Assembly (NCBI GenBank): GCA_015179125.1 | Contig: WHVA01000043.1 | Span: 248,001-312,000, forward strand | Source: Gautieria morchelliformis | Lineage: Eukaryota > Basidiomycota > Agaricomycetes > Gomphales > Gomphaceae | Reading direction: 5' to 3' | DNA length: 64,000 nucleotides | Shown: in pieces, positions 1,398-46,695 of the stretch | Numbering within the stretch: the first letter of the stretch is position 1 | Layout of the letters: each line of letters starts with the position of its first letter | Notes under the pieces: generated by a model | The model's database searches: none | Told to the model about the DNA's origin: nothing | What the model saw: the letters and a program-made list of their open reading frames with translations, nothing else | Position numbers and translations under genes: made by a program

Positions 1398-4300
1398 CTC
1401 CCCCTCAAGCCGAGCAGAGGCCAACGTAACTCACGAAGCGTTCAATTTTTGAATGGGGAAGGGGTTTGGTAAGCATGTCGGGGATCATGTCCTAGGTAGG
1501 ACAATATATGACAGAAATGACACCAGATTCAATGGCTTCGCGAATGAAATTGTAGCAAATATCGATATGTTTGGTGTGTGCATGGTGTTGATTGTCTTTA
1601 GCTATGACAATTGCTGGCTGATTGTCGGAATAGAGAGTGATTGGAGATGTTAGAGGTTGTGCAATCTCAGAAAGGAAGGTACATAGCCAAAATGACTCTT
1701 TTGTGGCATGCGTGGCTGCAATAAACTCTGCTTCAGTAGTCAAGAGTGTGACGATGGGTTGTTTCTTCGAACTCCAAGAAATAGTGCCACCGTCTATCAG
1801 GAAAACATATCCTGAAATGGAGTGATGGCGTTCTTGAGATCCCCAGTCTGAATCAGTGTAAGCCGTTAATCCGCTCTTCTCTTCTCCAAATATCAACCTC
1901 TTTTCTCTCCTTCCCTTTAGATATCTCAATATTCTTTTCAATGCTTCCCAATGCGGCCTCCCAGGATTTTCCATAAACTGTGAGAGGTAGGAAACTGCAA
2001 ACACGATATCTGGTTGCATCCCAAGAGCCACCCACATCAGTTAACCAACTGCCTTGCGATAGGGTACATTGTGCATCTCTTCAAAATGCTGTGATGTTAA
2101 GGGGCATTGTGATTTGGATAGGAAGCTATGTGAATTAAGTGGGATTGTGAGTGGGGCTGCGTCTTGTAAATTGAAACGTCTGAGGATGGTGTCGATATAG
2201 GCCTGCTGAGCAAACAAGATGGTACGTTTCCAATGGTTTCGTTTGACCTCCATTCCTAAGAGCCAACATAAGTCTCTGAGATTTTTATTTTTAATCTGGA
2301 TTTTAACTGTTATAGGCTTTTGAGCATTGGCTGTGATAGTTAAGTCATCTACTGCAACCGCCACGATGGTGTGTGCACCGTGAGCGTGTTTATAAAACAC
2401 AGCAGGATCAGCGGCACTACGGGTGAAGCCAAAGTCATAAAAGGCACGTGAAAGACATTTATACCATTTGCGACCTGATTGCTTCAGGAAATATAATGCC
2501 TTTTTCAGTAGGCAAACATGCTTCAGGCTTCCCTCGGTGAAATTTGGTGGCTGGTGCATATAAACTGGTTCTGTGAGAGGAGCATTGAGGTACGCACTAC
2601 TGACATCCATCCAGTGGAGAGGCCAGTCGTTTCTGCCAGCGAGTGAAGATATGATCTGGAGTGACTCTAGCGTAGCCAGAGGTGAGAATGTTTCATCATA
2701 ATCTACTCCGAATGCCTGCGTATATCTGTGGGCAACAAGCCAAGCTCTAAACTCCAGGATTTTTCCTTGGGCATTGCGCTTAATTCGGAAGACCCATCAG
2801 CAGCCAACTATATTTACATCTTCAGGTGTTTCAACGATGGTCCACATACCAGTATCATGCAGCGCATTGAGTTCTTTCTTCATTGCTTTCATCCACTCTC
2901 GTGCATTCTCACTCTGTACTGCCTCCTCCAATGTTTCAGGTTCTCCAAGATCCACTCATGCAGGCATGGCAAAAATATCTGGCTCATCTTCGTTGTCAGT
3001 AATCAGGGTTGGGATCTCTTCGATGAAGTCATCGAAGATTGAAAATGGTGGGTCATCCTCTTCATCCACAATCAGGGCCAGCAACTCATCCTCATCCTCT
3101 TCACTCTCTGCTTTGAAAAACATAGCAGTGGTGTGTTCTTTCAGCACCTGAAGCCCTTTTGGGAAAATAGGGCCTTTGGGATGACCATCGCTGGTACCTA
3201 CACCCTCTACAACTCGGTGTACATATTCTGATGGCTTCTTTACTCACAAACCATGTCCTTCTAGCTTGTCAGAATCAGGGGTCTTTTCAAAGTCTTCTAG
3301 TGGATCAGGTTCAGAAGGTGGAGGGGCTGGAAGTGGAACAGAAATGGATTTGAAAAGTACGCTTGGATTTTCCAGACCACTACTTGGTCTAATCTCCTCC
3401 TCGGGCTGGAGAATAAGAACAGAGGTGCATACTTTCTTTTCAAAAACAATATTGTGCTCCACTGTAACACTGCATTTTGCTGGCCAATAGATTCAATGTC
3501 CTTTGCTTTCGGTGCTGAATCCGACCCAATGCCTATCTGTTGCTTTAGCAAAACCTTTTCTCCCCATTTCGGCAACTCAGCTAGGTTTGGTTTCACCGCA
3601 TGAACCATTTCAAAGGGGGTTTTATCAGGGAGTGCATGTGTGGAAGTGCAGTTCTTCAGGTACGTCACATGCATTACTCCTTCACCCCAAAGGAACTTAG
3701 GCAAATTGGCATTGAGAAGCATGGCACGGGCATGTTCAATAATTGTGCGATTGAGGCGTTCGGCTACACCATTTTGTTCTGGTGTATTGTGGATGGTAAG
3801 TTGACATTGAGTACCTTGAGTGGCAAGGTAAGCTTTAAACTTGTTGCTGAGGTACTCACCTCCACGATCTGATTGCAGCGTTTTCATTTTGATGTTCCTT
3901 TGCATCAAAAGGAGAGCCTCATGAGCTTTGTATTTCTCAAAGGCTTCACTCTTTTTACGCAAAAGGTAAATCATCGTCTCACACGTGCAGTCATCCGTGA
4001 TGGAAATATAGTAACATTTACCACCTATCGTCTCGACCTGTGCAGGTCCCCACACATCTGTGTGTATTTTTTTTCCTTCAACTTTTGCTTTCCCGCTGAC
4101 TTGTTCTTTCGGTATGGGCTTTCTTGTAATGTTCGCCTTTATGCATGTTTCACAAAACTCGGCGGGTGCAGATAAGTTGCGCTCTATACCTTCGACTAGC
4201 CCATCACTGACTAGACGTTTTGCAATGATAGGAGAGATGTGGCCCATATGAGTGTGCAAATCTGTGAGTGACATAATGGTATGTGTCATATTGGCACTTA

Positions 4301-5585
4301 TTTTCATGTCATGCTCAAAATGGTAAAGGCCTTGAGTCTTCGGGATTGAGGCATAGACTTTGCCAGTAGCACTGTGAAGAGTGCACAAACCTCCACTGAA
4401 TGTGCAATAGAAACCTGAATTGTCGCAATGTCCAATCAAAATGAGCGTAAAAGCAATTATGGGGGCATAGAAGTCATTCTTCAGTGTAAGGCAAGTCATT
4501 CTGTTTTCATTTGGCACTTCAATTTTCATATCCCCTGGGCCTATAGCTTCAAAGACAGTCTTGTCTGCAGCATGGATAGTTTTAGGAGGGATAATGGGGG
4601 CAAAATTAGTGAAAAGGTCTCAATACGGCGACATATGAGTGCTTGCACCTGTATCCCAGATTTCAGTGACCTTGTCAGATTGTGATGCAGCTGTTTGAGC
4701 AAGAGTTGCTCCATCAAACGTAGTCGTGAAGGCACAATCATCGCCATCATCTGCTGCATTCACTCCGGCTGCATTTGGGGTACTGCCCCCTTTTTCTCTT
4801 TTACCCTTGCCTTTACCATGTTTGCCCCTCTTTCCACTTGGCCCCTGACCCTCTTTACCACCACCCTTTGCCCAGCAGTCGCTCTGGAAATGCCCCATTA
4901 ACTGGCAATTGTAGCACTTGACCTTTGACATGTCGGTGCAATTCAAGCGGCCTTCAGCTCCACATGTGTTTGCTGCAAGAGCATTGTTCTTGTTGCTATT
5001 GGTAGGGTGTGATTGAGCCTTTCATTGAGCTTACTCAGCTTTTATTAGGGTTGCAAGTTCATTGAGTTTGAGTGTTCTGCCTGTGGCAGATACAGCAGAG
5101 GTGATGGCATTCAGCATGATGTCATAGGACTCCAGGAGTGACACAAGAACAATGTTGTAAAACTCATTCTCATCCACTTTTGCTCCCATCCCGGCTAACC
5201 TCTTGTGCATCTCCACAAGGGGGTCGAGGTGCGCACGAACATCACCGCCATCCTCGCATCTCGATGCGTGCATTCTGCACTGCAGATCAACTTGGGCCAT
5301 CTTCGGCTTTACCTGATACTCAGTGCACACTGCATCTCACACCTCTTTCGATGTCGCAAGATTCTGGATGGATATGAGGAGGGAATCTGAGACTGATACA
5401 AAGATCTGGGCCTTTGCGTGACCCTCGCAGGCGAGGTACTTTTCCATTCTTTCCTCTTCCTTCTCAAGTGTCTCCAACTCATCAGGAGTGAGCATATGAT
5501 TAGGAGGGAAAGTAGTGGGATCAGGTGGGCGACGTGCAGGGCCTAGGACATGCTTTGTCAACACACGCATCAAATGAGGATTCAG
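1398..5585 (-). mobile_element. Copia retrotransposon remnant 1, minus strand
   Basis: Parts in minus-strand order: gag around 4620-5573 with a CCHC zinc knuckle (CYNCQLMGHFQSDC), pre-integrase and integrase around 3500-4530, reverse transcriptase around 2041-2950, RNase H around 1450-2037, then polypurine tract and 3' LTR. It is a broken fossil with more than five interruptions. The 5' LTR and leader are missing: gag sequence runs straight into the FunK1 gene near 5580. The 3' LTR lies below 1397. Confidence 0.85.
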
Positions 5586-7807
5586 TCGTCATGATTGTAA
5601 ACCTTGTGGAATTGCTAGGAGACCGCGGGAACATTTTTAAGAAGGCTTTCTCCTGTAAGCTCAGCCGCTCTTCTCGGTCCTCAGTGGTATGATGATCTGT
5701 TGGCGATGAGGAGCTGGAATCGTCAGGTGGGAGCGTATAATAGAAAATCTGCCAAACGGCGATCCACCACAGTGACTCCAGGTCATGCAGAGAGTTGTGA
5801 CGAAATTCTTTCGGCATGTCTTTGTATGAAGCGTAGGGATTGAACAAATACATTTCTTCGGCAACCTCACAAGCCATGAAATTGATTGTTCCCTACAGAC
5901 ACTTTTGATAAGGGCGAATGACAGAACAGGAATGTAGATGTACCGTTCGAGTATTATGAGCGGGAGTAACCTCGGACTCCTGCTTCATATATTCCAGGTC
6001 ACTCAGCAAGCCAACATTTTCACAGACAAGTATGTTTCCTGGGCTGATATCCCTGTGTACCCACCGATATGTCGCCATCAGTTGGAGAGCTGATTGATGA
6101 AAATGATAAGTATGACGAATCGAATGGACAGTTAGTACGCACCAATGGCGGCATCTCTCATCGCCAAGAAAAATTGGGGCAGAGTACGGATAGAGTATAT
6201 CGGCTGTGCAACTTGTGCGAAAATAAGACGATAGTGTGCCTTCGGCCGATATACGCGTCGGAACAAGGGCATAGTTGGATAGGTTATAGGTAACCCTCTG
6301 GTACTGACAGAGACGGCTATGCCATCTCGGAGCTCAAGCTCATCCGAGTCAAGTGGAATTTCGTGGCCACGCTGAATAAAATCGAAGGTGTCGTCAATTT
6401 GGCCATCGATGAGGACGTCGCCGGAAAAAAGCACAGTGACGAAGTGTTTTGCAATCTTGTCTTTATGCGTCTTATCATTAGAAGCTTGTTCTTCAAACAT
6501 TGTTCGAATGTCACCTTCCCGAACGCGGTCAGCATCAACCCATACGTCTTTAACGACGACGAGCATGTCGGTACCATCCGATTGCCGCAATAAAGCTTTC
6601 CAGACGCGCGTGCCACGTCCACAAACAGCATCGGCACCGAAGTCGGCGATGAGTTCGACTGTCTTGACATATACTACTTTTCCAGTGACTTTATCTTGAA
6701 CCTGTATTTCATACTGCTCGGAACTGCCAGCGATGGATAGGCACTCGATAGTGGGATCCCAACCCATTTGAGTTTCTGTTGCGAAGCAGAACGAGAGTGC
6801 AAAATGGATAAACTTCTCATGCTCCTGCAAGGGACAGGTGCTCATTAATGGCGATGCCGTGTACCGTATGACTGCTGGCACAACTTACTTGTATGAAGTT
6901 GAACGACTTTGTAACGTAAACCGTTGACCGACATGCAAACCATATTCTCGTCTGGGTGTTTTTGATCGTGAGCCCATAGGTGAATCTGCGACACGGATCC
7001 TTTCGCATGATGTGAGCCATAGCGTACAGAACCTTTTGTATATTCTATATGACAGTGCGCAATGAGACAAGTGTCGTCCTAATAGCTAGTAAGACTCACG
7101 TCATCCCTATCACTTTCAGAGGCGCCAAGCTTATACTCGCAAGGCAATGCAATGTTGAACCAACAGTAATTTGGCATGCGTGCCGACTTGGAGGGATCGG
7201 TTTCGGACGGTGACTCTAGGTCGTCGGAAGCTTTTAAACGCATGAAACAACCGTCTGGGTGGATAGTGTAATCGCCAGGGTGCGCGGGAGACGTTTTGGG
7301 GTGATGTACGAGCTTTGAACATTGCGGGTTTCCAGTGCCACCGGGAATAATGACAGCGACCTCGGCTTGAAAGGCTGCAATGATATGATCCACGAAAAGA
7401 GGCAATTTGCTGAAAACGGCATCTTCATCCTTCTTATTCGTTTCACTTATGTGCGCTGGGTCCTGCTCGAAGCAATGCGGTATCGTCCAGGACTGTTCGC
7501 CTTCCCCCGACGGTTCTGGAGAAACTGATTTTATTGTACCTTCATTCAAAAGTCGTTCTTTGACCTGTGAGACGCTAACCCGAGGTACCGGCAATGGGGG
7601 CAAGATATGCTCCAAAAACCAGTCTATAGGGACCTCTGGAATTTTGTCACCAATGTCCCGCGGTAGGGTGGAGCATTTTCGTTCCAGGTGACGTTCGCTT
7701 ATCGGCTCATTATGATCCGAATGACGGTACTTCGAGCGGGCAGGTGTATCCTTGATGTCAGATTGCCGACGAAGGGTTGATGGAGGGCTTTGTGGAACTC
7801 CAGACAT
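5521..7807 (-). CDS. FunK1-type protein kinase, five exons, 3'-truncated
   Basis: A fungal-specific FunK1 kinase, presumed intracellular. Exons on the minus strand: 7807-7100, 7044-6889, 6824-6143, 6089-5944 and 5892 onward; all four introns are 51-64 bp GT-AG and their phases agree. The start is the ATG at 7807 (MSGVPQ); an upstream extension in frame lacks FunK1 features. Exon 2 carries ADP-side N-lobe sequence including HIMRKDPCRRFTYG, exon 4 the catalytic HRDISPGNIL and the DLE variant of DFG, exon 5 the family signature FRHNSLHDLESLWW. The reading frame drifts after FPRSPSNSTRF near 5590, where Copia gag sequence begins, so the C-terminus is replaced by unrelated residues. Whether it is still active is unknown. 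FunK1 genes are expanded in Agaricomycetes; their substrates are not known. Confidence 0.85.
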
Positions 7808-8164
7808 GACGTTTAGACAAGCGAATGCACTTATCAAGAAGTATATGCCAGAGATGACGAGGTTCACATGCAATCGGACTGGATAGACCTAAAGGTTCAT
7901 TCAATGCATCGCCCTCGATCAATAGATATTCGACATTGAAGACAAATTAGAGGTTAAGAAATACTCACCCAGTATTCCTACAACAGAACTGAAACACAAG
8001 GCATATGAATCGGGAGTTGGAGAAGACTCTGCTGGACGTGCTTGCCAGTCAATTCGTCGGACTCACAATTTTCAATGCGCGAGCAATTATATGTCACCAC
8101 GACCGTGCAAATTACGGAACTTCTTTGCCAACACCGTCATGTCGCCGCTGCAAGTCAATTTATC
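7808..8164. other. Upstream region of the FunK1 gene
   Basis: No coding region or clear core promoter element was recognised. The stretch separates the kinase start from the inverted block that begins near 8165. Confidence 0.5.
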
Positions 8165-9930
8165 TTCGAAAGAAATTGCAAATACCAATCTGTTCTGGAT
8201 GGGACTGATAGAGGTGGGATGTTGTTAACCTCAGACAAGGGTTCAAATGACCAAAAAGTACGTCCTCTCGGATGGCTTTGGAGAGTCACTAATAGCATGC
8301 ATAAGGTTCAAAGCCAAGGTTCCGGTGGCCTGGAAGGACTTGAAGAAGACTTTTCGGATGGGAGGTGCATTGTCACCATATAACCAATCTGTTGTAGACT
8401 TTGAATTTGTTCCAGGATACAGTACGCTTTTGTGCGCGTAAAGATCCCAATGTACGTTCCTTGCCGTGCAGGCAGCTGAAGCAAATCTCACAACCAATAT
8501 ACCCTAGACCTAGCTATCGAAATTTGTAACTGGTGCTGGGATGGTGTACCACAGGCGAAGAAGGGCCTGTTTCGTACGTTGACCAGCAGCTCGGTCATTT
8601 GTATTCTAAATTCGTGCTCACAGGCACCCATTCAAGCAGAGTGGGAGGCTATCTAGAAGGGACGCCTGTTGTTGTCGATGCTAGCACCGAGGTGTGTTTC
8701 TCCTTGCCTTTTACCTGATGCGCACTCATAGCCTCATTCCGATGTGTCGCCAGCGCTCATCATGAAACGCGTAAGGGACGCATCTGGTGCCAAGTATTCA
8801 GTGCACAATGAGGCCACTCGTAGTGCAGACCCTATCGCGCCTGTTGGCACGAATTCCATATGCGGAGCTCGTTCTTGCTTTTGTTTATCTTAGTCGTTCC
8901 TGAGGAATGGGAGGCCAGGGTCGCACATTGGGACGGTGGTAGGTGGGACATACGCCAAAGATATTACGCTGGATGGTCGGGAATGCACTGAGCACATGGA
9001 TTGTTCCGGCCGCAAGACGCAGGGTTTGTAAGATTCGACCATGAATTCAGCGCAGTAGTTATGATACCCACAAGCCTGAAGGATCTAAATGAAAAACTTC
9101 CTCTTCAATATCTACTAAGTCCGGATTTGTGCAGTGAGCGCAAACCAAAACACTCAGGAATTTAATATGACGCACATCGACTGACCTGGTCCAGCGGTCC
9201 TGTGTCGGCACGACAGGCTGCATGTGTATACCTGTCAAGGCCGTAGATGCTCTCTAGAACTGCGAATAGGAGTGAACCGAACATAACCGAAAATACAGAA
9301 CTGACTGCCCAAGCGTTAGACAGGCCGCATCCTCGGCCGCGTCGGCACCTGTCCGAGGCTCTTCGCGTTCACAGTTGGCTTTGAATCTTTCTGTATACCA
9401 ACAAATATAATTTTTATCAGATATTTTAACATTATAGGTGTTTTCTGATATAGTATATTGACCATCCGCGCTACTATGTCAACGAAAAGGAAGCTATTGC
9501 TAGCGCCAGCGCGAATACGTCTGGTGAAAAGGACATACCATAATGGCCCAGTCCGGACATTTGTCTGGCATTCATGAGTCAGGAACGCGAAGATCATTGA
9601 TAGATGCGATGAAACAGAACAAGCCTCCGTGCGTAACACAGCCATTGCGTCCCAGCTGCCCAAGCTAAACGGTACGATCGGACGCCCCCCGGTGTCAGGA
9701 TCAACACATGTAGACCGATGAAGTTACGTAAGTTGACTCACCGAAGATTTTTGCTAAATGTCTCACTGCTAGATACCCACGGTCCAGGTCCCCAAGGTAA
9801 GCCGTCCTGGTGAGATGTGTACACCCATCCGGCGCTTGAGAGATGAGTGCGTTGCACGTGTCGCGAGCGCTAATGCATTCCTTCGGCTTCGGCATCCTGG
9901 CTTCGGGTTCCTGGCTACTTCTTGCGCTTC
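8165..9930 (+). repeat. Inverted duplicated block, arm A
   Basis: This stretch is matched in reverse complement by 24795-26580 at roughly 90% identity by eye, with small indels. The match runs from the first readable part of an ABP1-like pseudogene to a segment ending near CTGGCTACTT at about 9926. A 115-codon open frame at 9316-9663 is preserved in both arms, but most differences between the copies change the residue, so it does not behave like a constrained gene. No terminal repeats or target duplication were seen at the arm ends. Confidence 0.8.
8190..8865 (+). pseudogene. Drebrin/ABP1-like actin-binding protein pseudogene, copy A
   Basis: Fragments of an ADF-homology domain are readable in order but in different frames: a DKGSNDQKV block, then SGGLEGLEEDFSDGR, then FVRVKDPN, then GWCTTGEEGP, then LEGTPVVVDASTEV. 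After a likely intron (GTGTGT to CATAG, about 8689-8731) comes SPALIMKRVRDASGAKYS and APVGTN. This order matches fungal Abp1, which binds cortical actin patches through its N-terminal ADF-H domain. Several frame changes and stops separate the blocks and the C-terminal SH3 part is not seen. The second copy lies inverted at 25905-26560. Family assignment is from remembered motifs. Confidence 0.65.
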
Positions 9931-16844: not shown

Positions 16845-16978
16845 TTGGCTCGGGCTTGTCAAAACTTGAGCCAGGCCCGGAAGCCCGGCACCCCATCAGC
16901 TTGGGCCTGGCCCGGCTCGGGCTTTTGGGGGCTCGGCCCGGCCCAAGCCGCGGCCTGGGCCGGGTCGGGCCCATTGAT
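16845..16978. repeat. hAT-type subterminal repeat remnant
   Basis: The stretch is built of GGCCCGG, GGGCTT and GCCCGG words and ends at about 16976 with GGGCCCATTGATAG. Read on the minus strand this resembles the TAGTGATGGGC terminus of the element at 56395-57040. It looks like one decayed end, or a shrunken copy, of a related hAT-type element. No target duplication was found. Confidence 0.4.
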
Positions 16979-16982
16979 AGAA

Positions 16983-17400
16983 TGATAAGGTTTGAAGTAG
17001 AGTTGGGATGCCTCCTATAGCTCGAGGCCGAGTTCGATATAGAGCACAAGAGGCGAACGCGACTCGAAGTTAGACTAACTACTCGAAGTCAAACAAGATA
17101 TCAAAAGGTTCATGTTCTTCAATCATACATTGCGTACTACTTATAGCTACTCGGTTAGGGTCTCGATACATAGGGACGAATGATGGGGGTAGTGGGGTTG
17201 TGTGCATGGTAGGTGCGTACGTACCACCACTACCGTACATCCATGCTGCGGATCGCTCGTTCGGTCTGGCCTGGACATGAGGCGGAATAGAATGTCCTAG
17301 TGTGGTGGCTCGAGTGATGAGGCGGGATGGTAGGAGGGACTGGATAGGAATAACGTGCGCGGCTCGAAGGTAATGGAGAATATATGTTGCGTGCCCTGAT
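16983..17400 (-). repeat. Probable distal part of the Copia 2 3' LTR
   Basis: This piece shares the ACTCGA/CTCGAC-rich style of 20628-20990 and lies directly on the other side of the inserted TIR element, whose 8-bp target duplication (GCCCTGAT) joins the two pieces. If that reading is right, the LTR is about 770 bp long and ends near 16983. The outer end was chosen only because a CA terminus is possible there. Confidence 0.5.
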
Positions 17401-17740
17401 CACCTGTAGTGCCCGGTTAGTCATACCTTCTTAGCTAGGGTAACCGGCCGGGTTGCAGAGGCTAAGTAGGTATTGTTTGCAGAGAGGACCAGTACTACGA
17501 ATAATACTACGTATAATTCTTACTTGGCTACAAAATGTGACTGTGGGTGAGCTATGGACACCTGTCCTACCCGTCGGAACCACATCCAGCGTCTTGGGCC
17601 ACGTCTCAACTGTTCACGTGACCGTCTCCAGCGACCGCCACGTCGCATCAACCACTGCCACCGTTGTCGCACGCAGCGAGCTCAACCGGAAACTCTCCAC
17701 AGCTCCAAGATTTCCGGATTTTTTAGTGAGTTATGCCTCC
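17401..17740 (+). repeat. Left terminal inverted repeat
   Basis: Matches the reverse complement of 20291-20627. Differences cluster at the inner end (after about 17685); the outer 280 bp differ at only a few positions. The first exon of the plus-strand cargo gene lies largely inside this repeat. Confidence 0.85.
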
Positions 17741-18314
17741 TTAAACCTCCAGTATCAACCCTCTTCCATTGATGCATTTGCTTCACCTGATGCTGCCAAT
17801 ATTTCGTCTGTCTTCCCCCGTGCAACATGCAACGACATCTTGCAATTCTTGAAAGATCTCACTGAAGGTTTGTGTGTAACTCTATTGTCCATACCGACAC
17901 TAACCAACCTGTAGGTATCATTCGCAAACACACCATGTCAGCCCTTCTCATTTTTATCACAGAGAACGCCACACTTCCACATGGCGGGCCCCAGGACCGT
18001 GTGCTGGGGAAGCTCGATCTCGTATTATTTGACATCACTGGCACGCTTCATGGTTATTACAGTGACAATACGCAGGTATGTTTTCTATTGCGTATCACCA
18101 TCGCTGTTCCGCTAGCTTACACATTTTGAAGACATTTGCGCTCGAGGTAATTTATATCCTCTCAGCCATTATCACTTATTGATGCTACAACACCACGATC
18201 TGGCAGGCGGCACATGGATATTTCGACTTTTGTGACATCCTAAAGGCGGGTCTTATCTACGATGAATATACCAAGTTGCCCACAAATGACCGAGTTCGCG
18301 TGAAATGTGAATAA
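17453..18314 (+). CDS. Spliced unknown gene inside the TIR element, 5' end unresolved
   Basis: Four exons are readable: up to 17867, 17915-18075, 18132-18146 and 18207-18314 (TAA). The introns are 47-60 bp, start GT and end AG, one has a CTAAC branch-like site, and phases agree throughout; exon 3 is only 15 bp. The frame is open from 17453 but has no ATG, so the true start lies elsewhere or was lost. Readable segments include NVTVGELWTPVLPVGTTSSV, FPRATCNDILQFLKDLTEG, KLDLVLFDITGTLHGYY and AAHGYFDFCDILKAGLIYD. VLFDITGTL has a faint likeness to motif I of HAD hydrolases, but motifs II-IV were not found, so no function is assigned. The first exon overlaps the left inverted repeat and hence is half-duplicated at the right end. 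Confidence 0.55.
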
Positions 18315-18356
18315 AATCTTTCCGATGCATTTCGCGTTGGGAGACAAACAATGCAT

Positions 18357-19430
18357 CTAGTCCCAAGGCTCGACGACGTATCCTTCTTCCAATCCATCCA
18401 GTATGGTCTGAAGCCATCCGTTCGCAGCGGTTTTGATACCAGAATGTAAATGGTTTGACTTTCTCAAGAGATCGAAGTCAACCACACACCATTGATGCTT
18501 GTGGCCGTGATAAGGGCAGACAATACTCTGGTCTGTCGCAGGTGCCGCCAAGATATTTCTCTATCGGATGTCAGTATGTTCGATACTGAATCGACCCTTG
18601 TCGCTGTATATTTCACGAACATCCGGTCTGCATAACAAAGGATGTTCAGAAGCATGCATAGTTAGAGCTGGCCAGATGAACTTGAATGCATCCAACGGAA
18701 CACCTATGGGCATCACGTCCCCGAGTCTTTCTAAGACCAAGACTGAAAGAAAAGTCTTGTCGCTGCGGTTGCACACTGAGGCCGGATCGGCACGAGTTGG
18801 TTTGATGATTCGGGCACGTTTATCTCGACGTTCTTGTCTTAACTTCTCCCTTAACTTCCACCTTTCATCATTGCGCTTAAATACCGCTTCCAAGCTGAAT
18901 TCTTCCATCACCAGATCATCAGAATCTGTCCATGCGTAGAGGTCCCATGTATCCTCCGTGTCACCGTCATCCTCACTTGGGCTGGCCTCACCCCGAACGT
19001 CTACCTCCTCATCGCAATCCGCATCAGACTTTGCCCAATCCAATACCTCGCTATTCTGCTCGATTTCAGCGGTAAAGAATCCATAGCAGCGTGCGATGGC
19101 TACTCCCTGAATATCCTCCATCTCTTCGTAAAACCAGGCCTCATGAGCCAGGTCGTCAGAACGGCGCCGAGCAGCGACTTTTATTACAAGGGATGGAAGA
19201 GTGTTTACAAAGATTCTATAAATTTTAACCACCACGCGACGCGAGCCTGGCTCGTGTATGGCATGGCTCACCATGAGTACCAAGGCGCAGGGCCTGCACC
19301 GCACTCGCACCTGCGTCGAAGTTCCGCGCAGGATGAGGACGGACTGGCCGACGATGGGGAGCACAACGCAGGCGGCGGCAGCGGCGTCGGGCCCGGCCCA
19401 CAAAGCACCGGTGGGATGTCCGCTGAACAC
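18357..19430 (-). pseudogene. Fungal protein-kinase-like gene, interrupted
   Basis: The minus strand encodes a kinase-like protein of a type common in Agaricomycetes: VVVKIYR and LVIKVAARRRSDDLAHEAWF (lysine of the N-lobe), VAIARCYGFF, a long acidic insert, VLVLERLGDVMPIG, the catalytic-loop variant HTDIR and, further on, VVDFDLLRKSNH (DFD in place of DFG) and a C-terminal VVEPWD. A TAG codon stands directly after HTDIR (about 18556-18558) where related proteins have tyrosine, and the frame is open on both sides of it. The upstream part (before about 19330) is not family-like, so the first exon is uncertain. It is cargo of the TIR element and converges on the plus-strand gene, 42 bp apart. 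Confidence 0.65.
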
Positions 19431-20290
19431 AGGTTAGCGTGGAGGGGGAATGTTTGGACACCGGGTGTGAAGACCACGGCTGTGATGAGCTAGTAAGACG
19501 AGGATTCATTCAGTGAGCAGCTCAACTACAGGGTGGTTTCACATACTGGTAATCACCTGCAGTGATCGGGAGTTGATTCTCACAGACTGGGCATCGTTGG
19601 TTCCGAGCTCTGTGGTATCTGTATCACCGAACCCAACTCGGTTGGCACTCGGCTGTGCAACAAAGGGAAGATATCTTGATCGTCGGACCCTTTCTCCGCG
19701 ATAGCACTCAACAGCGCGACACAGGGACGTATCACAAGGGTCCATGCTGATACCTGACGATTATAAGATGAGACTTGTCGTCCGGAACTTGATTCAGTAC
19801 ATACCTGTCCGAAAGTCCTCGTAGCGGGACCTGTAAGATGATTACTAGTGCAAACCGCCCAGTTCCTTGGAATGTGTTACGCACTAAAGTCAGCATGGCT
19901 ACGGCTGATGATAAGTTCCGTCATTGAAACAAAGTACCCAAATATAAATATCCCTGATACTAAAACGCCCATGCGGGTGGTAGCGTTGGCGTGTTAACGA
20001 GGAACTAGGAATACGGGGTTGGAGTCACTGACAGTCAAGTATGGCGGGTAGCCAACCCCCACCACGGCGGTATGCATCGAGGACTAAGAGCTGCAATACG
20101 CCCCCACCCAGAGGCCGGCACATCCACCCCAAACATGAAGAAGAGAGGGTGCCTCGCGGTTGAGTATGGGGCTCAATCTCGGGGAGAACCTGTCGTTCCT
20201 CGTGAGTAAGGCATGAGAAAGTAGATATGTAAATACACACTTTGAGTTTACTTACTGTACCACAAATGGACAAGCTGAGTTGGGTCAAGC
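19431..20290. other. Interior of the TIR element without a gene
   Basis: Only short frames with no family resemblance were seen between the kinase-like gene and the right inverted repeat. No transposase motif was found on either strand. Confidence 0.5.
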
Positions 20291-20627
20291 AGGAGGCATA
20301 TTAAAAAAAGCCGGAAGTTTTGGAGCTATAGAAAGTCACCGGTTGAGCTCGCTGCATGCGACGACGGCGGCAGTGGTTGATGCGATGTGGCGGTCGCTGG
20401 AGACGGTCACGTGAACAGTTGAGACGTGGCCCAAGACGCTGGATGTGGTTCCGACGGGTAGGACAGGTGTCCATAGCTCACCCACAGTCACATTTTGTAG
20501 CCAAGTAAGAATTATACGTAGTATTATTCGTAGTACTGGTCCTCTCTGCAAACAATACCTACTTAGCCTCTGCAACCCGGCCAGTTACCCTAGCTAAGAA
20601 GGTATGACTAACCGGGCACTACAGGTG
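20291..20627 (-). repeat. Right terminal inverted repeat
   Basis: Reverse complement of 17401-17740. It ends ...CTACAGGTG at 20627 and is followed by the second GCCCTGAT copy at 20628-20635. An 80-codon minus-strand frame here is the duplicate of the first exon of the cargo gene. Confidence 0.85.
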
Positions 20628-20990
20628 GCCCTGATCGCGATGTGGGATCGACTCGTTCCATCCTGGTACTCGGCTCGTCAACTATACTCGTGCCTCAACT
20701 CGACTCGTGATACGGATCGAGGTGCTTGGGAGTAATGTGTTGGTCTCGACTTGACTCAGTGAGTATCAGTGTGTGTCTGTGGTATCGTCTCGTGTCTCGA
20801 TGGCTCGGGTGTGTGCGTATGTGTCTCGCGGTGCTCGGGGTGAGATTAGATAGTGAGAGAGAGATCGTTAGGGCAATCGTGAATGGAAATCATTGTAATA
20901 GACATTACGAGTCATTATTCGTGTGCGTGAAGTCATGAAATGAACCAAGTGAAACTGGAGTCTGTAGCTGATGGGTCTTTCCTCACGACA
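20628..20990 (-). repeat. Proximal part of the Copia 2 3' LTR
   Basis: The minus strand begins TGTCGTGAGG at 20990, immediately after a polypurine tract at 20991-20999, as expected for a 3' LTR. It is rich in ACTCGAC words. The LTR is cut at 20628 by the TIR element and appears to resume at 17400. Confidence 0.7.
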
Positions 20991-24794: not shown

Positions 24795-26580
24795 GAAGTG
24801 AAGCAGCCAGGAACCCGACGCCAGGATGCGCTTGGGGACCTGGGCCGTGGGTAGATGGCCATGAGACATTTAGCCAAATCTTCAGTGAGTCAACTTAACT
24901 TCACCCCTATCGGTCTACATGTGTTGATCCTGACACCCGGGGCCATCAGATCGTACGCTTTAGATTGGGCAGCTGGGACGCAATGGCTGTGTTACACATG
25001 GAGGCTGGTTCTGTTTCCTCGCATCTATCAATGATATTCGCATGCCTGACTCATGAATGCCAGATAAATGTCCGTACTGGGCCATTATCGTATGTCCTTT
25101 TCACCAGATGTATTCACGCTGGCGCTAGCAATAGCTTCCTTTTGGTTGATATAGTAGCACAGATGGTCAATCTACTATATCAGAAAACACCTATAATATT
25201 AAAATATTTGATGAAAATTATATTTGTTGGTATACAGAAAGATTTGAAGATAACTGTCAACGCGAAGAGCCTCGGACAGGTGCCAACATGGGGCTCCTTG
25301 ACCTCTGTATACTTCAACTAGCTAGTTAATTTCAAAGTTCCATGTAGCCTCAAATGGAAGCCTGTTTAAGAATCCGAGGATGCAGCCTGTCGATCGCTTG
25401 AGCAGTCAGTTCTTTATTTTCAGTTATATTCGGTTCACTCCTATTGGAGTTCTAGAGAGCCGCTCTATCTATGTGTACATGCAGCCTCTCAGAGGCATTC
25501 TAGCGTTTACAAACCGACCCCTTGCATGAAATGACTCTTTGTGCCGACACAGGACCGCTAGATCAGGTCAGTCGATGTGCGTCATATTAAAGTCCTGAGT
25601 GTTTTAGTTTGCGCTCACTGCACAAATTCCTGACCTAGTAGATATTGAAGAGGAAGTTTTCATTTATATCCTTCAGGCTTGTGGGTATCACTGCACTGAA
25701 TTCATGGTTGAATCTTACAAACCCTGCATCTTGCAGCCGGAACAATACATATGCTCAGTGTATTCCCAACCATCCAGTGTAATGTCTTTGGCATGTTTCC
25801 CACCTACCACCGTCCCAATGTTTGACCCTGGCCTCCCATTCCTCAGGAGCAACTAGGATAATTGTCTCCAGAACAAAAGAAAGAACGAGATCTGCATATA
25901 GAATTCCTGCCAACAGGCGCGATAGATTCTACATTACGAGTGGCCTCATTGTGCACTGAATACTTGGCACCAGATGCGTCCCTTACGTGTTTCATGACGA
26001 GCGCTGGCAACACATCAGAATGAGGTTATGAGTGCACATCAGGTAAAAGGCAAGGAGAAACACACCTCGGTGCTAGCATCGACAACAACAGGTGTCCCTT
26101 CTAGCTGGTGGCTCACTGTGCTTGAATGGGTGTCTGTGAGGATGAATTTAGAATACAAATGACCAAGCTGCTGGTCAACGTACGAAACAGGCCCTTCTTC
26201 GCCTCTGGTACACCATCCCCACACCAGTTTACAAATTTAGATTGCTAGGTCTAGGGTATATAGGTTGTGAGATTTGCTTCAGCTGCCTCCAGGGCAAGGA
26301 ACGTACATTGGGATCTTTACATGTACTGTATCCTGGAACAAATTCAAAGTCTACAACAGATTGGTTAGATGATGACAATGCACCTCCCATCTGAGAACTC
26401 TTCTTCAAGTCTTTCCAGGCCACCGGAACCTTCCTTGGCTTTGAACCTTATGCATGCTATTAGTGACTCTCCAAAGCCATCCGAGTGGACCTACTTTTTG
26501 GTCATTTGAACCCTTGTCGTAGGTTAACACCCAATCTATATCAGTCCCATCAGAACAGATTGGTATTTGCAATTTCTCAG
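24795..26580 (-). repeat. Inverted duplicated block, arm B
   Basis: Reverse complement of arm A (8165-9930). The copy includes the ABP1-like pseudogene at its far end and the shared 118-codon frame at 24965-25321. The arms lie about 15 kb apart with quite different sequence between them, so this is an inverted segmental duplication rather than one element with terminal repeats. Confidence 0.8.
25905..26560 (-). pseudogene. Drebrin/ABP1-like actin-binding protein pseudogene, copy B
   Basis: The same ADF-homology blocks as in copy A are readable on the minus strand: WVLTYDKGSNDQKV, then VVDFEFVPGYST where copy A has the same, GWCTRGEEGPVSYVD, LEGTPVVVDASTEV, and after the likely intron PALVMKHVRDASGAKYS and APVG. 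The blocks fall in different frames, so the copy is dead. Copy B keeps the WVLTYDKG start better than copy A. Confidence 0.65.
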
Positions 26581-35774: not shown

Positions 35775-38700
35775 TTATGAGGCCTCTCTGCACTGGATCC
35801 ATGAAGTCCCATGCTCAAACTGGCTGAGATCAAGCTTTGTGTACCCTTTCCCAATGACAGCAGTATTCGCTGGCCGGCACAAACCTAACTGAGACCAGGG
35901 TGGGACCCAGAACAAAAGTTCTGAGGGTGAGTTGAGTATCCAGCCACTTTCTAGCCGTGAGTCATGTCGAAACCAAGGCCCTGTAGCTGTACAAATGATA
36001 TTAGAAGATGTCGCCATGTTCGAACAAATAAAAACAACAGCTACTGACTAGCCTGACCTGCAAATGGTGCTGCAATGAGCTCCCCTGTGTCTGCATGCCA
36101 CACACGGATCGTCTTGTCATCAGACCCGGAGACAATGGGTGTGCCGTCGTGCGAGAACACCACCGATGTGACCGAGTCACTGGGGCCTTTGAATGGTGGT
36201 GAAATGGCCTCCCCGGTGTCTGTATTCCACACACGGATCGTCTCGTCTTCAGACCCGGAGACGGTGCGCTTGCCGTCGTGCGAGAACGCCACCGACGTGA
36301 CCGTGCCGGTGTGGCCTTCGAACGGTGCTGAAATGGCCTCCCCGGTGTCTGCATTCCACACACGGATCGTCTTGTCACCAGACCCGGAGACGATGCGCTT
36401 TCCGTCGTGCGAGAACGCCACCGACCTGACCGAGCCGGTGTGGCCTTCGAACGGTGCTGAAATGGCCTCCCCGGTGTCTGCATTCCACACACGGATCGTC
36501 TTGTCACCAGACCCAGAGACGATGCGCTTGCCGTCGTGCGAGAACGCCACCGACACGACCCGGTGGGTGTGGCCTTCGAATGGTGCTGAAATGGCTTCCC
36601 CGGTGTCTGCATTCCACACACGGATCGTCTTGTCATCAGACCCGGAGACGATGCGCTTGCCGTCATGCGAGAACCCCACCGACGTGACCCAGTCGGTGTG
36701 GCCTTCGAATGGTGCTGAAATGGCCTCCCCGGTGTCAGCATTCCACACACGGATCGTGTTGTCATCAGACCCGGAGACGGCGCGCTTGCCGTCGTGCGAG
36801 AACGCCACCGACGTGACCCAGTCGGTGTGACCTTCGAATGGTGCTGAAATGGCCTCCCCGGTGTCTGCATTCCACACACGGATCGTCTTGTCATCAGACC
36901 CGGAGACGATGCGATTGCCGTCGTGCGAGAACGCCACCGACGTGACAAAGTGGGTGTGGCCTTCGAATGGTGCTGAAATGGCCTCCCCGGTGGCTGCATT
37001 CCACACACGGATCGTCTTGTCACCAGACCCGGAGACGATGCGCTTGCCGTCGTGCGAGAACGCCACCGACGCGACCCAATCGGTGTGGCCTTCGAATGGT
37101 GCTGAAATGGCCTCCCCGGTGTCTGCATTCCACACGCGGATCGTCTTGTCACCAGACCCGGAGACGATGCGCTTGCCGTCGTGCGAGAACGCCACCGACG
37201 CGACCCAGTGGGTGTGGCCCTTGAGTGGTGCTGAAATGGCCTCCCCGGTCTCTGCATTCCACACACGGATCGTCTCGTCATCAGACCCGGAGACGATGCG
37301 ATTGCCGTCGTGCGAGAACGCCACCGACGTGACAAAGTGGGTGTGGCCTTCGAATGGTGCTGAAATGGCCTCCCCGGTGTCTGCATTCCACACACGGATC
37401 GTCTTGTCACCAGACCCGGAGACGATGCGCTTGCCGTCGTGCGAGAACGCCACCGACGCGACCCAGTCGGTGTGGCCTTCGAATGGTGCTGAAATGGCCT
37501 CCCCGGTGTCTGCATTCCACACACGGATCGTCTTGTCATAAGACCCGGAGACGATGCGCTTGCCGTCGTGCGAGAACGCCACCGACGTGACACAGTGGGT
37601 GTGGCCTTCGAATGGTGCTGAAATGGCCTCCCCGGTGTCTGCATTCCACACACGGATCCTGTTGTCACCAGACCCGGAGACGATGCGCTTGCCATCATGC
37701 GAGAACACCACCGACGTGACCGTGCTGGTGTGGCCTACCAGAACGGTTTGAATAGGTGGCCACGTCGTCGCTTTGCCAGTCTGGACCCGTAGTAGTCGCG
37801 GAAACCGTGAGAGGTAAGTCTCGCACAGTTTCGACCTTTCAGGTGCAAACGGGAGTGCCGACAAATAGAGATGGGGGGTACTCTGGGATATGACACTGCC
37901 AAACGTACGTACAAAATTGAGGGTATCCGGTGCCAATGCTGCAATGTCCTCATCCTGAAGTTCATTAGATTCACGTCGGAGCTCATAACAACTCGGGCAC
38001 TCACCTGACTCCAGTCCATTATTGACAAGAGCGCTGCTGAAGCATCGGGTACCTGCTTGATCAGACTCAAAACTTCCAGCCATTCGAGTAGCTTAGTCTC
38101 GAAGAACTCCTCGACCTTTGCACCTATATGCGGTGTAAACTTGATGTCACGGACATGGTCCGCCCAAAAGCGGCAAGAGTAGGAAAGTTGTGGGGATATA
38201 TACTTCTTGGTCCGTATCGCCAAGTCGACAACGTCGTCGTTACGCAGATGCGATGTTTCAAGCTGACAAATGTTGAAACGAAGTTCATCCTTCATCACGC
38301 GCAAGCATGAGAGTGCAAGGTTGCCATGGTGTGAAGATGTATCAGATGTATCGATGTAGAATGCTTTACTTCGGTCGCGATCTGTCAAGAAGTCACGAAA
38401 AGACGTGTGCAGCAGAGTGATTGTGCCAGATTCTTGAGAAGGAAGGCTAAGCAGAGCACCCATAGGTCCAACGATAAGTTGAACCTTGGTACCCGAGTTG
38501 CCGCCCTTGCACAGTTCCTGCAGGGCAGACATGGAGAGCGGTTCTCTGGCAGTCAGGATGCAGGCCATCACCGAGCAAAAACGACCCTTGACCTTGTCCG
38601 TCAAGCCATCGCCATCCTCGAATATCTGCTTGAGAATACCGAGATACAGGTTATCCATCCCGCGGAACTTCTCGTCTAAAAGTTCATCCAGTTGCTCAAC

Positions 38701-44249: not shown

Positions 44250-46695
44250 AGTTACTCTTTGCGTTCCTTTCGTGTCCCTCTTTTGCGCCATGGTCCCTTT
44301 GCATTTCCTTTTTTTCCCTCGTTGGGTTAACTTTGAGATGCATGTTTTATTCGGATGTTCCTTGTTTCATTCGATTTGAGACGTTTCTGCGATGGCTGGT
44401 TGAGATGTGTTCCTTTGTGATACGTTCCTTGGTGAGTCTTGACGCACGTCTCCAGGTTCCAGTATATCCAGCGCCACCTATGCGTTGCGCAACGGGAAGT
44501 TGTGGTGTGGGTGTGTGCTACTCAGCGTGATAACAAGCACGTCTAACAGCAGAGATCAGGCACACTTTGGGTCACACTGCGGACGTGTATGACAGGCTGA
44601 CCATTTATGCGATGGTGTATTTCGAGACCAGTGTTGGGGGCTGGGGTCAGTGATTCTTCGGAGCTCGGTAGCCAAGTAACGCTCAACCAGCTAAGCGGTA
44701 AGCGACGTTGTTCTGCTCTGGATGTGAGTCCGCATGATCAACGCGCTGAACGCTTCAAATAATGCAGGGTGGACGCACGCTCGTCGACCACCGGTATGAC
44801 ATTATAGCACCATCGTACCTGATATCTACCACCCTCGCGCATACGCCCTACGCACGATAATTGAGCCCAATGTTGCTTTCTTCCATCAGTATCATCCTAC
44901 GCCTTTCTCGCAGCTTGTATGTTCCTCCACCGTTGTGAAATCAAGGCGATCCCTACCATTCCAGTGTCGCTGAATGTAACATGTTCGACACGTTCAAACT
45001 CCGCTCTTCCAAAAATTCGCTGAATTGCAACCTTGCGAGTTCAAATTCTGGGTTCATTGAGCTTTACTGACCCTAATCGAAAAAGCGTCTGACTGGTAGC
45101 AAAATCATGATCTCTATATGGTGAGGATACTTATTGTAAGGACTCTGCCTGCACGCAAAATGATTTCGCTGCCAGGGCATATCATTATGCAACATTCAAT
45201 TAACTTCAAGAGTAGCAGGACCCGTAATTGTCTAAAGTCCAAGAGCCCTGTGAGTCTTGAATCTAATATAGTTGATGCATCGGCTCACTAAAAATATAAA
45301 TCCTGGGGCTTACAAGGGATCAAATTCTGGAATTACTTTGCCACGTGAGTTGTTTTCCTGCGACACGATTTTCACAGTATACTGGCCATGGCTTTTTTCT
45401 ATGAGCTATTCAATCCCAGGTATGTAATATTTAAATAGTCTTCACCCGTCTGCACCTCGTTACAGTAAAGTAGAACATTATCAAAATAGGACCTCTGGTC
45501 TTTTCTTGTTACAGTAATATCATCATTTTTTCGGGAGAAAGAAGCAGCTTTATCAGTCCTTTTACAGAGAAATGCAATTCTCGCATACTGTATAGTCCCA
45601 GCGCGTTTCACGACGTACGCTTGCGACATAGGACGAGAGACTGGTCACGAGTATAAACATTGACAGTTTATGTAAATTTCCAAACGGTGAGGCCTGCTTG
45701 GTACGTCCTTGGCATTGTCCCGCCGAGATCAGTGCATTAACAAGGTTTTCCTTGCAGTCCTTACTAGAGGCTCATTGCTGTCCTGTCATATGCTTCTGAT
45801 CTTTGTCGGTCGCCCCCTCCATGGAGGTGGTTTTTCGTCACCCACTACCACTATTGAGTCGACGGGTCGGTTTCACCGTCCCATGTCCTTCTCTCATCCT
45901 TCCATCTCATTCTCATCCTATCGTCCTCTCATTTCATCGTCCCATCTGGTCATTCTCCCTTGTCTCAGAGTAACCCATTGGTACCGTTTAGCTCTCCTCA
46001 ACTACAAGGGCCTCCACAATCATGCTGACATAAAGGCAGGGGGACGTGAAGCAGGCGTCCAAGCAGGTGCCGTCGAGCAGGCGACGGCTACCAGGACGGA
46101 CGCGGGGGTTGGAGGTGTGCGTGAGAGCTTGTCTTCGCGACTGGTCGGCTTGTGCGAGGGTGCCAGGGTAGGACGCACTGCAGAATTCCGGACTACGCCA
46201 TGCCGGACCTGACAAGGCCGTGAGGCGAGAACACGAGATGGCTTTGGGACGCGAATATGCGAATGGAGGATGCCCCGCCTGCGGGACCCAAGCAACACCG
46301 TGACACGCCCGAAACATGGCGTAGACTGCGCACGTGGTCTTGCGTTTCCCAGGTAGATGTGATGATGCCGTATGGTGGAGGAGTGGGTGAAGGCCAGAGT
46401 AGTGGTTATATGGAGAGGAGTTGCGTGATGTAACGGGAGGCAGAACGGGAAGAGGAATGGAGAGAGACAGGAAACGAGAACGAGGGAACACCAGGAAAGG
46501 TGGAGCGCCAAGAGGCAGACGGTACCAGCTCAGGGTGAACACACGCACACGCACGCCACCAGGGCCCGAAAGTGCGAAGAGGGAACAACGGTGGATGGTG
46601 GATGAACAGTGACCCATCACAGATCTGACCTAGGTCGGAGGGTGGATAGAAAGACTCTAGCAATTGGCGGTTGAGAATCGCTGTGGGTGAGTTTC
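44250..46695. other. Stretch without a recognisable gene
   Basis: Frames are short or compositional. A minus-strand frame at 45988-46620 overlaps others and has no motif. 45830-45960 is CT-rich with TCATCC and CCCATC words. Nothing else supported. Confidence 0.4.

Follow-up and report, generated by a model that had tools for sequence, protein, structure and literature searches.

How did a 3,227-bp transposon that holds pieces of genes and no transposase come to move, and how was its cargo gathered? The element lies at positions 17401-20627 of a 64,000-nucleotide stretch of the Gautieria morchelliformis genome (contig WHVA01000043.1, positions 248,001 to 312,000; hereafter the window, in whose numbering positions are given). 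Comparison with related copies in the same assembly makes it likely that the window copy is a non-autonomous, gene-fragment-carrying (Pack-like) KDZ transposon whose cargo is a passenger. As proposed in an initial reading from the letters of the window alone (the sequence-only reading), the element is a terminal inverted repeat (TIR) transposon with an exact 8-bp target-site duplication, GCCCTGAT on both sides. Its inverted arms are 324 nt long and 96% complementary (94.7% identity across 341 columns in local alignment). The flanks belong to a dispersed repeat, with at least 40 matches in the assembly for the left flank (best 40 of 272 candidates scored) and at least 41 for the right flank (best 40 of 220 candidates scored), self included. 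Because this repeat adjoins a copia-type pol region (RVT_2, rve and gag_pre-integrase on the minus strand at 20.6-26.6 kb, in two of six frames), we infer that it is the long terminal repeat (LTR) of a copia-type retrotransposon; no partner LTR was found within the window. At all seven fetched element-free copies of the repeat the two flanks aligned ungapped, joined at one duplication (six over 200 bp, one over 174), with GCCCTGAT in three and an 8-mer one base off in four. The single 8-mer that the sequence-only reading expected of an empty site was thus recovered, but at other copies of the flanking repeat rather than at an allele of the window locus; no empty allele was seen, the best flank matches elsewhere (92-94%) being other repeat copies.

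The same reading had named several loci with shared ends and differing duplications as support for a mobile family, and such a family was found in the 122-Mb assembly. The outer 408 bp gave at least 40 matches (best 40 of 62 candidates scored), and the 16-base terminus pattern CACCTGTAGTGCCYRG occurred exactly at 40 sites (19 forward, 21 reverse), its backward control occurring at none. We fetched 27 stretches around family matches for comparison; copies are cited below by their labels, with WIN for the window copy. Identical 8-bp duplications flanked 12 of the 13 distinct two-ended loci, each with a different 8-mer, and at the thirteenth (C654) the duplication agreed at 7 of 8 positions. This tally leaves out C330 (left terminus lost), C611 (rearranged) and one-ended loci, and counts the insertions on C1054 and C1004 as one locus (99.98% identity over 4,993 columns). 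Two-ended copies ranged in size from 2,766 bp to 17,094 bp (C582:91482-108575, flanked on both sides by ACCATTAC). These results show that the window element belongs to a family that, judging from its copies, was mobile in the past. L029 and L030 proved to be the same insertion on two contigs (99.98% identical), and therefore the assembly holds duplicate or haplotype contigs.

In the window copy, as the sequence-only reading had noted, no transposase was found: there was no KDZ match and no sequence matching the transposase region of the long copy C892. Its call for autonomous-type relatives was answered by two long copies with the same ends, both of which hold KDZ transposase sequence. The 10,833-bp copy C892:434326-445158 contains a KDZ match (PF18758, E 2.8e-41) in an uninterrupted open reading frame (ORF), strengthened to E 1.8e-58 when stops were masked. 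The Pfam KDZ model also detected KDZ sequence in the 17.1-kb C582 copy, and L017:1777-5499 (the C892 copy) was 96% identical to C582:99960-103672 over 3.7 kb; other matches to this stretch were pieces only, the longest being 634 bp on C302 (best 40 of 116 candidates). Genome-wide, the model gave 91 matched stretches, often several per gene. With KDZ sequence in two same-ended relatives of 10.8 and 17.1 kb, the most likely placing of the window copy is among non-autonomous KDZ elements. KDZ1 of Cryptococcus neoformans, described as about 11 kb long with 241-bp TIRs, 8-bp duplications, KDZ and CxC1 (PMC12810828), has the same build as these long members in its size, long TIRs, 8-bp duplications and KDZ. 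Zisupton and the Dileera element Zisupton-1_PGr also make 8-bp duplications (PMC12730594), so that the duplications and TIRs of the family are as in Zisupton and KDZ1, and the features given for Kyakuja, namely 7-bp duplications and no TIRs (PMC12730594), are not those of this family. Two further long ORFs of the 10.8-kb copy, L017:6335-7443 (minus) and L017:8288-9769 (plus), had no Pfam match and are possibly a second transposon gene or extra cargo.

Broken pieces of three unrelated sequences make up the cargo of the window copy, at least two of them resembling parts of genes. One is a fragment of an M24-peptidase gene: PF00557 matched with E 5.2e-7 (30.1 bits vs a cut-off of 23) over profile positions 53-97 (45 of 208), and PDB matches to M24 enzymes were weak (best E 0.0082). 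Two GT..AG introns (17868-17914 and 18076-18131) and the beginning of a third (18147) were read from the sequence, which upholds the earlier claim that this DNA was captured as genomic DNA. The reading frame across the second intron gives DNTQ-TFALE, which we take to be as in M24 proteins. The 87-residue M24 ORF matched 16 genomic places; 15 of these belong to known family copies, and the remaining one, on C203, was not assigned.

The neighbouring piece has a close copy on C1048. In this source copy, which has an open gene frame and no intron over the 316 codons read, Gly-loop-like, VIKVA, HxDxRxxN and DFD motifs were read by eye; presumably these are kinase motifs. Pfam and PDB sequence searches with the source protein, whole and trimmed, gave no credible kinase match, so the kinase identity proposed from the letters has motif reading behind it but no Pfam or PDB sequence match, and the piece is called kinase-like on its motifs only. 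The window copy lacks the N-terminal region ahead of TLPSLVIKV and has a premature stop, TAG, directly after HTDIR. Outside the transposon family, nucleotide matches to the piece were found at no fewer than 27 places (77-97%; best 40 of 132 candidates), including seven on C615, six on C1048 and three on C602 among those listed, and a protein search gave 123 matched stretches, in several of which a frame of about 380 aa is open. Contigs C615, C1048, C602, C1047, C13 and C2 hold clustered multicopy kinase-like genes with no Pfam match. Within the window, a kinase-like relative at 44909-45040 (36% over 44 residues, E 0.009) had no Pfam support. Thus, of the 'two spliced genes' arranged tail to tail in the sequence-only reading, the convergent arrangement holds, but both are truncated, and the kinase-like source is intronless over the codons read.

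The third captured fragment matched loci on C437 and C201 in two pieces each, and less to C770; in C437, C201 and E1015 a further 103-118 bp, absent from the window copy, lie between the two pieces. The C437 and C201 loci together with C770:160132-164869 appear to be a multicopy source of this fragment. The sources of both the kinase-like and the third pieces probably lie elsewhere in the genome. Other family members carry other cargo. The C1004/C1054 element contains a DHX9-like helicase piece (PDB 3llm, E 2.2e-25; no Pfam match), which C654 shares and of which C582 and C161 have parts (54% of it within the fetched right part of C582), and the C330 element contains an SDR piece (PF00106, E 9.8e-11) and a kinase-like-looking ORF with no match in Pfam or PDB.

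For the cargo comparison we used 27 sequences (elements or fetched stretches, partial and duplicate ones included). M24 without the kinase-like piece was found in E545, E737 and C113 (E139a has 23% of M24); M24 with the kinase-like piece and no third piece in E231, E892 and C302; and all three pieces in WIN, E359, E437, E196 and, incompletely, in E1015 and C611. The part of C582 that was fetched, 9.8 kb at its right, had none of the three, and neither the M24 nor the kinase-like protein matched C582 in genome searches in which all candidates were scored. An uninterrupted arm is present in E231_R, E892_R and E545_L, and we infer that the right arm shows the older, uninterrupted state. In arms with the kinase-like piece, the arm breaks after CTTATT and passes directly into source sequence with no shared bases at the junction; at the far junction there are two bases of unclear origin. 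The source match of the C892 copy covers C1048:63967-65126 apart from an internal 499 bp, and in this copy the kinase-like sequence replaces right-arm positions 773-1126, about 350 bp. Because the near junction is common to the copies, the comparison points to a single capture of the kinase-like piece.

To compare the ends, we used 23 diagnostic sites fixed between A arms (E231, E892, C302) and B arms (E654, E1004, C582); the tally leaves out these reference arms, E196_R (interrupted by other sequence) and C330. The left arm of the window copy (WIN_L) was A at 23/23 sites, and its right arm (WIN_R) was B at 18 and A at 5. E437, E359 and E1015 likewise had one arm A at 23/23 and the other B at 19, 19 and 21 sites, respectively, and E139a had 21 A sites on one side and 21 B sites on the other. 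E545 and E737 were A on both sides (22/23), and E196_L was A at 23/23. A tree of 26 arms gave the same A/B split with 97/99 support, 11 of its 23 inner branches being open. In the window copy the change from A to B falls at about 19204, where the kinase-like piece ends and C582-type sequence starts. These results show that the two ends of the window element belong mainly to two different subfamilies, changing at about this position. Dating the window copy by arm divergence was rejected because its arms belong to the two subfamilies. The C196 copy has about 4.5 kb of other sequence inside its right arm (L015, about 3345-7898), probably a nested insertion.

We propose that the window element would be moved in trans, through a cut-and-paste mechanism, by KDZ transposase from the long copies. 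Repair of a break in one arm may have brought in the kinase-like piece as filler DNA, a step in which the arm would have lost about 350 bp and gained about 1,160 bp from the source. Later, a B-type end would have become joined to an A-type half that already held M24 and the kinase-like piece, and the joined A/B element would then have spread to at least six loci. The cargo would be a passenger, and we assign no function to it. Several observations weigh against this reading. Mobility is read from sequence comparison. The KDZ region of C892 has two in-frame stops (introns or damage), so that a working transposase from it is hypothetical; the CxC1 match in C892 (E 9.3e-5, 23.0 bits) is below the cut-off of 26.9, and CxC3 gave E 0.0057. 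Furthermore, no M24 source gene was found among the 16 places matching the 87-residue ORF, the sources of the third fragment could themselves be repeats, and the A-type sites in WIN_R mean that the ends are not cleanly of two types.

The main rival for the end-joining step keeps the capture as proposed but derives the mixed ends from homologous recombination or gene conversion among copies instead of from two elements joined at a break. The five A sites of WIN_R all lie among the first ten of the 23, as conversion would leave them, and E139a has one A and one B arm without the kinase-like piece; therefore, mixed arms arose more than once or early. The change in the window copy, however, is a non-homologous joint at the end of the kinase-like piece, which plain arm conversion would not create, and we regard this explanation as possible but rather unlikely. 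That the pieces are nested insertions of other mobile elements, not captured gene DNA, is improbable: the kinase-like family is indeed multicopy and clustered and the third piece occurs in several places, but the kinase-like junctions have neither duplication nor inverted ends, about 350 bp of arm is missing there, the M24 piece contains spliceosomal introns, and the kinase-like source has an open gene frame.

It is very unlikely that the element carries working genes under selection, with a kinase or peptidase serving host or element. Three of the seven copies examined keep the kinase-like frame open, namely E437 and, within the part that they retain, E1015 and C611, and the ratio of nonsynonymous to synonymous differences (pN/pS) between the source and the seven copies was 0.33-0.65, with few changes each; these counts leave out C892 and C302 (internal deletion). 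However, the ratio against the source also reflects selection on the source; among the copies it was 0.38-1.57 (21 pairs, few changes each), and near 1 for WIN vs E437 and WIN vs E196. In addition, four of the seven copies have a premature stop, the N-terminal region is missing, and only 45 of the 208 profile positions are matched by the M24 piece. Two working genes in the window element were rejected on the premature stops and the missing N-terminal region, which also speak against the earlier suggestion that kinase cargo could spread signalling genes. Still less probable, and highly so, is a hAT element in whose long copies the KDZ sequence is a passenger. Such an element would also fit the 8-bp duplications, and fungal hAT elements with captured host genes are known (PMC3538342, PMC6710886), but each of the two long copies has KDZ sequence (3.7 kb at 96% identity between them), Cryptococcus has KDZ elements built in the same way that are described as active (PMC12810828), and no hAT domain was found in the scanned frames of C892 (L017 plus 1900-5504, minus 5500-9900, ten ORFs). 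A Starship-like cargo element was considered and set aside, as long TIRs and KDZ-bearing relatives account for the case.

There is still debate over the way in which cut-and-paste transposons acquire host DNA. Having uninterrupted arms, captured segments, a close source and a subfamily joint in one genome makes break-repair and end-fusion models testable on fixed junctions, and relatives within the family show the stepwise gathering of gene parts. More tentatively, the KDZ transposons here may be a standing gene-shuffling system in which ends are exchanged, host gene pieces (M24, kinase-like, helicase, SDR and others) are gathered serially and intermediates are kept, with KDZ as a Pack-like superfamily. 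If true, the list of superfamilies giving rise to gene-fragment carriers would grow by KDZ, and in fungi the Helitron and hAT cases would be joined by a TIR pathway that shuffles genes with their introns kept. Helitrons are not known to have TIRs or target duplications.

Comparable cases show how far 'little described', the verdict of the sequence-only reading on such elements, holds: in part, but fungal KDZ elements with TET/JBP genes, gene-capturing Helitrons and hAT transduplication are in print, and KDZ identity, the third fragment and the two-subfamily ends were absent from its picture. No report of KDZ copies carrying multiple pieces of host genes was found among the listed titles and abstract openings of mainly open-access literature. 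Pleurotus has KDZ elements (PMC7641404). The KDZ1 passages of PMC12810828 concern transposase-bearing elements, whereas the family here also has short copies that carry pieces of host genes. In the TET/JBP case (PMC12730594), fungal KDZ elements likewise carry a host-type gene, but as described there the gene lies beside the transposase, whereas here several broken gene pieces occur without one. The Helitrons of Pleurotus ostreatus (PMC4289320) are, as here, basidiomycete mobile elements with captured gene pieces, but move by rolling circle. Transduplication of histone H3 by ascomycete hAT elements (PMC3538342, PMC6710886) likewise multiplies a host gene through a TIR element with 8-bp duplications; that case concerns one intronless gene from a transcript or retrocopy, whereas the M24 piece keeps its introns. 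The element works like Pack-TYPE elements of plants (PMC8903248), which are also non-autonomous, have TIRs, carry host gene pieces and use the ends of autonomous elements. The window copy, too, lacks a transposase and has ends common to transposase-bearing elements, and probable sources were found for its kinase-like and third pieces, not for M24. New Pack-TYPE elements are reported to form by fusion of smaller ones (PMC8903248), which the A/B joining proposed here resembles. Pack-TYPE elements are described there for plant MULE, CACTA, hAT, PIF and Mariner, not KDZ, and the word 'fungi' does not occur in that text. The features of the window copy and its flanks are collected in the table.

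Features of the window copy and its insertion site (window positions)
Feature	Position	Strand	Basis
Target-site duplication, left	17393-17400	no strand	GCCCTGAT
Target-site duplication, right	20628-20635	no strand	GCCCTGAT
Left terminal inverted repeat, A-type subfamily	17401-17724	+	23/23 diagnostic sites A; arm tree
M24-peptidase gene fragment	17828-18180, cut at 18180	+	PF00557; limits are those of the stretch common to the window copy and E545
Kinase-like gene fragment	18181-19204	-	96.7% identity to C1048:64100-65126; kinase-like motifs
Subterminal sequence, B-type (C582-like) right end	19204-19557	+	85.6% to L032:8948-9343
Third captured fragment	19558-20141	no strand	91-96% to C437:259932-260631 and C201:80429-81129
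B-type right end, including arm 20304-20627	20142-20627	-	92.5% to C582 right end over 20220-20627; 18/23 diagnostic sites B
Left flank, repeat read as LTR beside copia-type retrotransposon (insertion target)	16975-17400	-	
Right flank, same repeat continued (probable LTR)	20628-20990	-	Repeat matches; ungapped empty-site alignments

Elsewhere in the window, a ladder of self-matches marked a tandem array with a period near 129 bp at 36054-37736. In addition, long repeats at 8171-9796 and 24831-26577 form an inverted pair, 86-90% identical in two pieces.

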